A stretch of 64,000 bases of DNA, taken from assembly GCA_021787985.1 (NCBI GenBank), contig JAJYLG010000003.1, positions 1 through 64,000 on the forward strand, in the 5' to 3' direction. The notes under the pieces are model-generated. The model was not told where the DNA came from. It searched no databases and saw only the letters and a program-made list of their open reading frames with translations. Both the position numbers and the translations under genes were made by a program. This DNA comes from Chloroflexota bacterium (GTDB taxonomy: Bacteria; Chloroflexota; Dehalococcoidia; DSGV01). Below, in pieces: positions 2,384 to 4,771 of the stretch. Within the stretch, counting starts at the first letter, position 1. The number at the start of each line of letters is the position of its first letter.

Positions 2384-2932
2384 TCAGTTCTTGGCCGGGA
2401 CATAGCTGAGGTTCAGCACGCCGCTCTTGAAGGTCTGCGCGCCGGCCAGCTCGAGCGGGGTGCGGGGCTCGTCCGGCGGAAAGAGCCGTGCCATGCCGCC
2501 GCCGACCACGATCGGGTGGACGAGCAGGTTGAGTTCGTCGAGGAGCCCCTCATGCAGCAGCCAGCGGACGGTCGTTGCGCTGCCGGAGAGGACGATGTCG
2601 CCGCCGTCCTGAGCCTTGATGTCAGCGAGCTTCCGGGCCGCGTCGCCGCTGATGAGCTCGGAGTTCTGCCACTCGGCCACCGTCAGGCTGTTGGAGACCA
2701 CGTACTTTTTCATCGCGTTGATGACGTCGCCGAACGGCTCGTCGGCGTGTTCCGGCCAGTACGCAGCCCACTCGTTGTAGAGCACGCGCCCCATCAGCAT
2801 GGCGCCGGCGGTCGCAAAGCCGGCGCTCACGACCGCCCCCGTCTCGTCATCGAAGTACGGGAAGTGCCACTGGTCAGGCGCCTCGGCGACACCGTCGAGG
2901 GAGATGAAGAAGTAGGACTTGATCTTGCGCAC
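2384..2932 (-). CDS. dihydrofolate reductase family protein (RibD C-terminal type)
   Basis: A 182-residue protein with SYFFISLDGVAEAPDQWHFP near the N-terminus, GRVLYNEWAAYWP, KYVVSNSL, GDIVLSGSATTVRWLLHEGL and HPIVVGGGMARLFP. These are the ordered motifs of the RibD C-terminal/DHFR-like reductase family (YyaP/YwjB group), which binds NADPH; the natural substrate is usually unknown. The start is a GTG at 2932 preceded by AGGAGG. It lies directly upstream in orientation of no partner, but the ArsR-SRPBCC pair on the same strand ends 42 bases before it, a neighbourhood in which such reductases are common. A broken paralogue lies at 3982-4085. Confidence 0.85.
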   Translation of the reverse strand: MRKIKSYFFISLDGVAEAPDQWHFPYFDDETGAVVSAGFATAGAMLMGRVLYNEWAAYWPEHADEPFGDVINAMKKYVVSNSLTVAEWQNSELISGDAARKLADIKAQDGGDIVLSGSATTVRWLLHEGLLDELNLLVHPIVVGGGMARLFPPDEPRTPLELAGAQTFKSGVLNLSYVPAKN

Positions 2933-2974: not shown

Positions 2975-3487
2975 CTAGTGACCGGTCATCGGCCGCTTGC
3001 TGTCCTCGGCGAGGATCGCGTCGATCTGCCCGACCGCCTGGGCCATGCCCTCTTCCATGCCCATCGCCAGGACCTGCTCCATCGCCGCAGTGTCGGGGAA
3101 CACGGTCTCGATCGACATCCGCGTCCGTGCACCGTCGGCGGCGATCGTTACCCGCATCTCCATGAGCGGCAGGTCGGGGTTCGGCGTGCCGTCGGCGTTC
3201 GCGAAGCCGTCACGGAGCACGATGCGATGTGGCGCCTCGACCTCGAGCACCTCCCAGTACCCGCGCGGCTGGTCGCCCTCCGGGCCGGTCATGTGGTACT
3301 CGACGCGACCACCAGGCCGGAGGTCGTGTGCGGTGACGGTGGCCGGATAGGTCGGCGGTCCCCACCAGCGCTCGAGCTGACGCGGGTCGGCCCAGAGCTG
3401 CCACACCCGGTCGGGCGAGGCGTCGAACTCGGCGTCGAGCTTCATGGTCAGCGTCTCGGGGTCCTTGCGTACGGCGGTCATGGTCAT
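2975..3487 (-). CDS. SRPBCC (AHSA1-type) ligand-binding protein
   Basis: A 170-residue protein. KLDAEFDASPDRVWQLWADP, ERWWGPPTYPATVTAHDLRPGG, RVEYHMTGPEGD, GYWEVLEVEAPHRIVL and a C-terminal helix with GMEEGMAQAVGQID match the AHSA1/START-like SRPBCC fold, a hydrophobic cavity protein. The ATG at 3487 overlaps the stop of the upstream arsR-type gene by 4 bases (ATGA), and AGGAG lies just before it inside that gene, so the two are translationally coupled. Families of this type are regularly paired with an ArsR repressor; the ligand is not known. Confidence 0.88.
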   Translation of the reverse strand: MTMTAVRKDPETLTMKLDAEFDASPDRVWQLWADPRQLERWWGPPTYPATVTAHDLRPGGRVEYHMTGPEGDQPRGYWEVLEVEAPHRIVLRDGFANADGTPNPDLPLMEMRVTIAADGARTRMSIETVFPDTAAMEQVLAMGMEEGMAQAVGQIDAILAEDSKRPMTGH

Positions 3488-3825
3488 CGAGGTGGCTCCT
3501 TCGTCTCGTCGCTGATCAGTGCTGACATGCGAACGACCCGGCCGCGCCACAACTCCTCGTACTGGTCGAGCAACCGGCGAGCGATACGCAGCCCTTCGAG
3601 GTTGGTGCACACGACCTTGCGACGCCCGACTCGTTCCTTCGTGACGAGGCCGGCGCGCTCAAGGACGGCGATGTGCTTCTGCACAGCGGCGAAGCTCATC
3701 GAGTAGTACCCGGCGAGCTCGGCGACGCCCTCTTCCGCGTCGATCGCGCGACGCACGATGTCGCGACGGGTGGCGTCGGCGAGGGCGCCGAACATGCGGT
3801 CGAAGTCGGGCGGGGCGACTTGCAT
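3484..3825 (-). CDS. ArsR-family transcriptional repressor
   Basis: A 113-residue winged-helix protein: FDRMFGALADATRRDIVRRA, YYSMSFAAVQKHIAVLERAG (recognition helix) and GLVTKERVGRRKVVCTNLEG (wing). The motif order and the adjoining SRPBCC gene place it in the ArsR subgroup that is not metal-responsive; no vicinal cysteine pair is present. The reading frame is open 12 codons further upstream, but I choose the ATG at 3825: a good promoter (TTGACG, 17 bases, TATAGT) places the transcript start at that codon, so the message is probably leaderless. A perfect 32-bp palindrome covers the promoter and the start codon, so the protein very likely represses itself and the SRPBCC gene. Confidence 0.88.
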   Translation of the reverse strand: MQVAPPDFDRMFGALADATRRDIVRRAIDAEEGVAELAGYYSMSFAAVQKHIAVLERAGLVTKERVGRRKVVCTNLEGLRIARRLLDQYEELWRGRVVRMSALISDETKEPPR

Positions 3826-3853
3826 CGATACAACTATATAGTTGTATCGATGC
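3822..3853. promoter_or_regulatory. perfect 32-bp palindromic operator of the arsR-SRPBCC operon
   Basis: Bases 3822-3853 equal their own reverse complement; the centre is ACAACTATATAGTTGT. The repeat contains the arsR start codon at one end, the -10 hexamer and most of the -35/-10 spacer. It is far more AT-rich than its surroundings. Binding by the encoded ArsR dimer is inference from position and symmetry. Confidence 0.8.
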
Positions 3854-3861
3854 CACGTCAA
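3833..3861 (-). promoter_or_regulatory. arsR promoter, leaderless
   Basis: On the minus strand TTGACG (3861-3856) is separated by exactly 17 bases from TATAGT (3838-3833); seven bases later comes the ATG at 3825. Transcription would start at or next to the initiation codon. Confidence 0.7.
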
Positions 3862-3981: not shown

Positions 3982-4085
3982 ATGGGACAGATCTACGCCA
4001 ACATGTCGATGTCGCTCGATGGGTTCATCGCCGGGCCGACAAGGACGTCCGCGTCGAAGGTGGCGCCGCCACCGTCCGGCAGTAG
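3982..4085 (+). pseudogene. relic of a second DHFR/RibD-like reductase
   Basis: An ATG at 3982 opens MGQIYANMSMSLDGFIAGP, the typical N-terminus of the DHFR-like reductases. Right after it, in a different frame, 4038-4085 reads DKDVRVEGGAATVRQ and stops; that is the late motif (K-D-V-x-V-x-G-G-A-x-T-V-R-Q) found about 100 residues downstream in the intact family. So the middle of the gene was lost, with a frame change at the joint, and the rest is missing. The intact relative at 2384-2932 is on the opposite strand and differs in sequence. Confidence 0.7.
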
Positions 4086-4127
4086 CTGCACGCCGGCGCC
4101 GACGGCGGGCTGTGGCGCCATCAGGGG

Positions 4128-4142: not shown

Positions 4143-4367
4143 ATGCGACGCACCACCATCTCGATCGACGCCCCGCTCCTCCGGGACCTCCACCGCATGG
4201 CAGAGGAACGGCGAACCTCGATCGCGGCGATCATCCGCGAAGCGGTGGAAGAGAAGCTGGCGACCTTCCGGCCCCGGCCTCGGAGCCTGGGCATCGGTGC
4301 GTCGGGCCACCGCGACACCGCCCACCGCGCCGGGGACGAACGACCGGAACCTCGGCCGTGGCGCTGA
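4143..4367 (+). CDS. vapB: VapB-type ribbon-helix-helix antitoxin
   Basis: A 74-residue protein. RRTTISIDAPLLRDLHRMAEER forms the beta strand and first helix and TSIAAIIREAVEEKLA the second helix of a CopG/Arc/MetJ ribbon-helix-helix DNA-binding domain. The C-terminal 30 residues (RPRP..., Asp/Arg-rich) would be the disordered toxin-wrapping segment. It overlaps the toxin gene by 10 bases, the usual antitoxin-first arrangement. It probably represses its own promoter together with the toxin. Its -10 is six bases before the ATG, so the mRNA appears leaderless. Confidence 0.82.
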   Translation: MRRTTISIDAPLLRDLHRMAEERRTSIAAIIREAVEEKLATFRPRPRSLGIGASGHRDTAHRAGDERPEPRPWR

Positions 4368-4771
4368 TCCTGGACACCGGGCCACTGTACGCGTCGCTCG
4401 ACCGAAGCGACGCCGAGCACGTGGCGTGCAGGCGGCTCATCGAAGAGGCTGAAGAGCCGCTGGTCATTCCGGCTCCGGTGCTCGTCGAAGTGGATTACTG
4501 GATTCACACGCGCCTTCATCCGGGTGTCCTTGTGGCCCTGCTCGACGACATCGAGTCCGGTGCTTACCGCGTCGAAAACCTTATCGCCGCGGACTACGCC
4601 CGTGTTCGCTCGCTCTGCGACCGCTATGACGATGCGGACATCGGCTTCGTCGACGCCGCGGTCCTGGCCATCGTGGAACGCCTCGGCGAACCCAAGCTCG
4701 CAACCCTCGACCATCGGCACTTCGGGACACTCAGGCCGCGTCATGTTGACGCGCTGGTTCTCCTTCCGTAA
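4358..4771 (+). CDS. vapC: VapC-type PIN-domain ribonuclease toxin
   Basis: A 137-residue PIN protein starting at a GTG inside the end of vapB. LILDTGPLYASLD supplies the first acidic residue (Asp6), PAPVLVEVDYWI the Glu, DADIGFVDAAVLAIVERLG the third acidic cluster and LATLDHRHFG the last Asp. These four positions bind the metal ions for RNA cleavage in VapC toxins. All catalytic acids are present, so it is likely functional. Targets cannot be deduced from sequence. The pair lies among gene relics, typical of a mobile or plasmid-derived toxin-antitoxin module. Confidence 0.87.
   Translation: MALILDTGPLYASLDRSDAEHVACRRLIEEAEEPLVIPAPVLVEVDYWIHTRLHPGVLVALLDDIESGAYRVENLIAADYARVRSLCDRYDDADIGFVDAAVLAIVERLGEPKLATLDHRHFGTLRPRHVDALVLLP

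Follow-up and report, generated by a model that had tools for sequence, protein, structure and literature searches.

The start of arsR in the stretch of DNA analysed here (64 kb, called the window) lies within a long perfect palindrome. The ArsR protein encoded downstream very probably uses the core of this palindrome as its operator and would thereby repress its own leaderless promoter. Comparison with 82 relatives narrows the functional unit down to 18 bp, TACAAC-N6-GTTGTA. This core is present in the window as TACAAC-TATATA-GTTGTA (3829–3846, no strand) and presumably bound by an ArsR dimer. The locus joins an already known kind of system; the interesting part is the comparison of two registers in which promoter and start codon are placed on the operator.

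The palindrome extends from 3822 to 3853, again without strand, and reads GCATCGATACAACTATATAGTTGTATCGATGC. As the initial annotation had claimed, these 32 bp are identical to their own reverse complement. It is the longest perfect palindrome of the window, the runner-up measuring 24 bp. In a first-order Markov model, perfect palindromes with an arm of at least 16 bases are expected 2.8 × 10⁻⁴ times per 64 kb and 0.015 times per 3.5 Mb. The inner 30 bp occur as a single copy in the source assembly, a draft of 3.5 Mb in 189 contigs.

On the minus strand, the elements follow each other in the order TTGACG (the −35, 3856–3861), a 17-nt spacer, TATAGT (the −10, 3833–3838, at the dyad centre), seven nucleotides (TGTATCG) and the ATG of arsR (3823–3825), which is exactly the geometry that had been described beforehand. 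TTGACG-17-TATAGT, with 10 of 12 consensus matches, has the looks of a good promoter of the sigma-70 type that leaves no space for a leader before the ATG; one match of this kind was found, versus 0.1 in shuffled sequences. No Shine-Dalgarno sequence precedes the ATG, which we infer to be the transcription start as well. Leaderless genes have been reported to carry TANNNT some 12 bp upstream of their start (PMC3160421), a pattern with which the 7 nt separating the −10 from the ATG agree. A terminator, sought along with the promoter elements, was not found. The palindrome had also been said to contain the −10, the spacer and the ATG. This holds for the −10 and the ATG, but the spacer is covered with only 15 of its 17 bases, and the −35 is entirely outside.

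A dimer of ArsR sitting on 3829–3846 would cover the −10 and the transcription start. RNA polymerase would then probably be unable to open the promoter, and arsR, the SRPBCC gene and possibly a RibD_C gene would remain off until a signal releases the repressor. The mRNA would begin at the ATG, with −10, transcription start and start codon sharing one palindrome. It is the leaderless nature of the mRNA that would bring the start codon into the operator, and no separate control of translation follows from this position; the switch would act on transcription only. The original proposal, that promoter and translation start are switched at once, was therefore very likely right as to a block of transcription but overstated as to translation.

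The arsR gene (3484–3825, minus strand) encodes, by sequence and predicted fold, a winged-helix repressor of the ArsR family with 113 amino acids. Its stop codon overlaps the ATG (ATGA) of the gene of an SRPBCC (AHSA1) protein (2975–3487, minus strand; Pfam AHSA1, E = 2.4 × 10⁻²³). After a gap of 42 bp, the same strand carries a dihydrofolate-reductase-like RibD_C gene (2384–2932, minus strand; Pfam RibD_C, E = 3.4 × 10⁻²¹), probably the third gene of the operon. RibD_C is found near arsR in few relatives only. An SRPBCC gene follows arsR in 104 of 106 loci, a count that includes repeats of one site and more distant paralogues.

AlphaFold predicts for the window's ArsR a winged helix similar to that of solved ArsR proteins (pLDDT 88). 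A protein of solved structure, M. abscessus Mab3862 (PDB 7r22), is 53% identical to it, and the two findings together place the protein in the ArsR/SmtB winged-helix family. The Pfam/NCBIfam cut-offs of curated ArsR models are narrowly missed (HTH_5, 21.5 versus 22 bits; HTH_metalloreg, 49.2 versus 55). The stretch SFAAVQKH of the recognition helix is invariant across 29 aligned orthologues. A metal sensor of the ArsR, SmtB, CmtR or CadC type was rejected: the sequence contains neither CxC nor any other recognisable metal site, be it of Cys or of His/Asp type, its single cysteine (C73) is not conserved among the orthologues, and the CmtR model scores 26.7 against a cut-off of 150. An SdpR autorepressor was likewise dismissed (NF033789, 40.7 versus a cut-off of 100 bits).

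Scanning the genomes of bacteria and archaea provided 80 related loci, to which the window's own class added three close ones (L005, L096 and L097). DNA upstream of arsR is available for 82 of these 83, the remaining one being situated at a contig end. TACAAC-N6-GTTGTA stands at the arsR start in 82/82, in some of them with one to three changes; this means 79 of the 80 scanned loci, the other being the one cut by the contig end, and all three close ones. The bearers span several bacterial phyla. The initial reading as an operator over a leaderless promoter is thus well supported by comparison with the upstream DNA of other ArsR-SRPBCC pairs: they show the same core at the start of arsR, TTG-N16-18-TAnnnT and no leader. 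The commonest form of the core is TACAACC-N4-GGTTGTA; the TACAACT-ATAT-AGTTGTA of the window departs from it symmetrically, with a change in either half. The −10 itself explains part of the conservation seen at the centre bases.

In the source genome and 25 further ones, 26 in all, the core is essentially confined to the position before arsR; elsewhere it occurs at about control levels. A multi-site regulon is unsupported in the source genome, where the core is a single site and matches with two mismatches look like background (21 versus 12 in the control), and equally in the relatives, where matches with one mismatch are few. The genome of L022 has a second operator with one mismatch (TACAACCGTATGGTTGTG, L115:1501–1518); it precedes a short-chain-dehydrogenase-like gene and lies about 2.7 kb away from the one at arsR. 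A literature search for the operator sequence yielded no relevant report, and a DNA search of plasmids only a partial match in Streptomyces, in which the operator was not recognised. This Streptomyces plasmid (L120, ~1140–1460) carries an arsR-SRPBCC pair of which the SRPBCC gene is annotated; its arsR is unannotated, apparently frameshifted and has no recognisable operator.

The loci fall into two types. Type A, with the window and 14 relatives, has its −10 in the middle of the palindrome and its ATG on the edge. In type B, which comprises 68 relatives, it is the ATG that occupies the exact centre (ATG GTT GTA), and the −10 lies on the upstream edge. TTG-N16-18-TAnnnT occurs at the centre register in 15/15 type-A loci, with TTG and TAnnnT placed as in the window, and at the edge register in 0/15. 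The TAnnnT at the dyad is mostly TATGGT, the start codon follows 6–9 nt downstream at the palindrome edge, and in all 15 the spacing is, by sequence comparison, consistent with a leaderless transcript. A central ATG is excluded as the start in six of the 15, being out of frame in five and replaced by ATA in the window. In type B, the edge register shows TAnnnT in 67/68 and the TTG of the −35 in 63/68; a full promoter at the centre is found in 0/68. The dyad ATG (once GTG) is in frame with arsR in 67/68, so that the protein would start with Met-Val-Val or, in a few cases, Met-Val-Ala. From one register to the other, the −10 is displaced by 13 bp, and so is the start codon when the commonest spacing is compared. 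As far as the alignments tell, promoter and start shift by 13 bp as one block against a fixed operator. TATGGT is already present at the centre in five type-B loci, which could resemble intermediates.

Type A is one clade (SH-aLRT 98–99). It mixes bins of Chloroflexota, Actinomycetota, Rokubacteria and Dormibacterota, which makes transfer or bin errors likely. In the free tree, type B is arranged around type A, yet forcing all of type B into one clade gives a tree that the test does not reject (p-AU 0.43). Paraphyly of type B is thus not significant by this test, and which way the shift went is judged from outgroups. Two cyanobacterial plasmids with arsR-SRPBCC (L118 and L119, ~1182–1201) show ATTCAAC(C/T)ATATGGTTGAAT with the annotated ATG exactly at the dyad; their ArsR is about 45% identical to that of a type-B member. 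Two more distant ArsR genes (L008 and L009) have the palindrome TACTGAACCATATGGTTCAGTA, imperfect in L009, again with an in-frame ATG at the centre; the half-site differs from both TACAAC and the cyanobacterial ones, but the layout is similar. Since these outgroups share the dyad ATG, the dyad start would seem to be the older of the two. We lean, if not strongly, to the view that the operator doubles as coding sequence for the first residues of its repressor, mostly with ATG at the dyad and Met-Val-Val in the right half-site, and that promoter and start have slid 13 bp downstream as a block in the clade of the window while the operator sequence was kept. No description of a family-wide dyad start codon or of the 13-bp re-registration was found in the literature searched.

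Might the palindrome work at the level of RNA? Transcription would then come from upstream and the palindrome would be a hairpin in the mRNA that hides the AUG. Such an RNA would indeed fold strongly (−38 kcal/mol, z = −4.2). The sole promoter found, however, starts transcription at the ATG, and an RNA from there retains just four palindrome bases and has no unusual fold (z = −0.5), which makes the hairpin unlikely. In type B, where transcription would start at the dyad, a hairpin is impossible, and the conserved pattern of two half-sites with a variable middle is that expected for a protein dimer. Control by such a hairpin appears highly improbable. It is also very unlikely that another regulator binds the palindrome or that the opposite strand is the one controlled. 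Of course, both the inner TATAGT and the outer ATG have a mirror image, −10 and ATG can be read on both strands, and a divergent leaderless gene starting with the ATG at 3850 of the plus strand is conceivable; one relative, L013, even has an intact RibD_C gene divergent across the operator. The plus strand, however, offers no −35, its frame from 3850 matches no family, and the palindrome stays with arsR in all relatives, whatever adjoins upstream.

A further possibility, that the full 32-bp perfection is selected, e.g., by a larger or cooperative ArsR complex, would refine the operator reading and not replace it. The 16 perfect bases per arm speak for it, as do long arms in a few relatives (26 bp in L018, 30 bp in L066 and near-complete over 32 bp in L020). 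Yet the flanks outside the core pair no better than shuffled partners in types A and B (P 0.23–0.73), and symmetry outside the 18-bp core had to be rejected as a conserved trait. We consider such selection unlikely; by this comparison, the symmetry beyond the core, up to 32 bp, is peculiar to the source genome. Palindrome arms can be perfected by chance or by quasi-palindrome correction, and either chance or template-switching correction of an imperfect palindrome would explain the present one. Of the 32-bp operator initially proposed, the conserved 18 bp thus remain; conservation does not extend to the outer symmetry or to the mirrored ATG that forms part of it.

Autorepression by ArsR, the preferred reading, is known from M. 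tuberculosis. Rv2034 represses its own gene, and the footprinted region, −30 to +3, holds a palindrome whose halves are separated by 4 bp (PMC3338718). The transcript was mapped as leaderless and is 17-fold up in starvation (PMC3898074). An SRPBCC (polyketide_cyc2) gene is next to it, and there is no response to seven metals. Rv2034-Rv2035-Rv2036 thus resembles the window and type A in having an ArsR gene followed by an SRPBCC gene. Its palindrome centre, as read from the published sequence, is TAAACT with the start codon just after, i.e., the type-A layout; in the window, too, the SRPBCC gene directly follows and the palindrome lies over the −10 and reaches the start codon. By analogy, the window's register has an experimental precedent in Rv2034. 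The systems differ in the half-site, CCGTAAGT in Rv2034 and TACAACC in the window's family, and in reach: Rv2034 has further reported targets (phoP, dosR), whereas the source genome shows a single site. Actinobacterial ClpC2 is likewise an autorepressor, and its gene has a suggested leaderless transcript and a pseudopalindrome on the promoter elements (PMC10030653). As at arsR of the window, the operator is close (1–2 nt) to the start codon; repressor family and half-site, however, are unrelated, and there are often two operators. Mab3862 belongs to the same ArsR subfamily as the window's protein, and the genes named 'metalloregulator ArsR/SmtB' by PGAP that have SRPBCC neighbours group with it as a close known system. 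A report on its operator or function was not found in the literature searched.

The operator predicted from the comparison is TACAACC-N4-GGTTGTA in the ArsR-SRPBCC pairs of Actinomycetota, Chloroflexota and others, a large group that has received little study, with a related sequence in cyanobacteria. The position of the operator indicates the correct start codon of the ArsR proteins in this group. Repressor site, leaderless promoter and start codon on shared bases, and re-registrable, make up a comparative system; if the proposed slide is true, it is a natural example of a promoter and a start codon moving beneath a fixed operator. With its single target, the layout would lend itself to a direct reporter screen for the sensed signal.

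Two observations concern the DNA upstream of arsR. At 3982–4113 of the plus strand, divergent from arsR, lies what is left of a second RibD_C-like gene, MGQIYANMSMSLDGFIAGP continued in a different reading frame by ADKDVRVEGGAATVRQ-stop, with an apparent internal deletion; the intact divergent RibD_C gene of L013 occupies the same place. It is followed on the plus strand (4143–4771) by genes for a ribbon-helix-helix and a PIN-domain protein with overlapping ends, a toxin-antitoxin pair of the VapBC-like kind.
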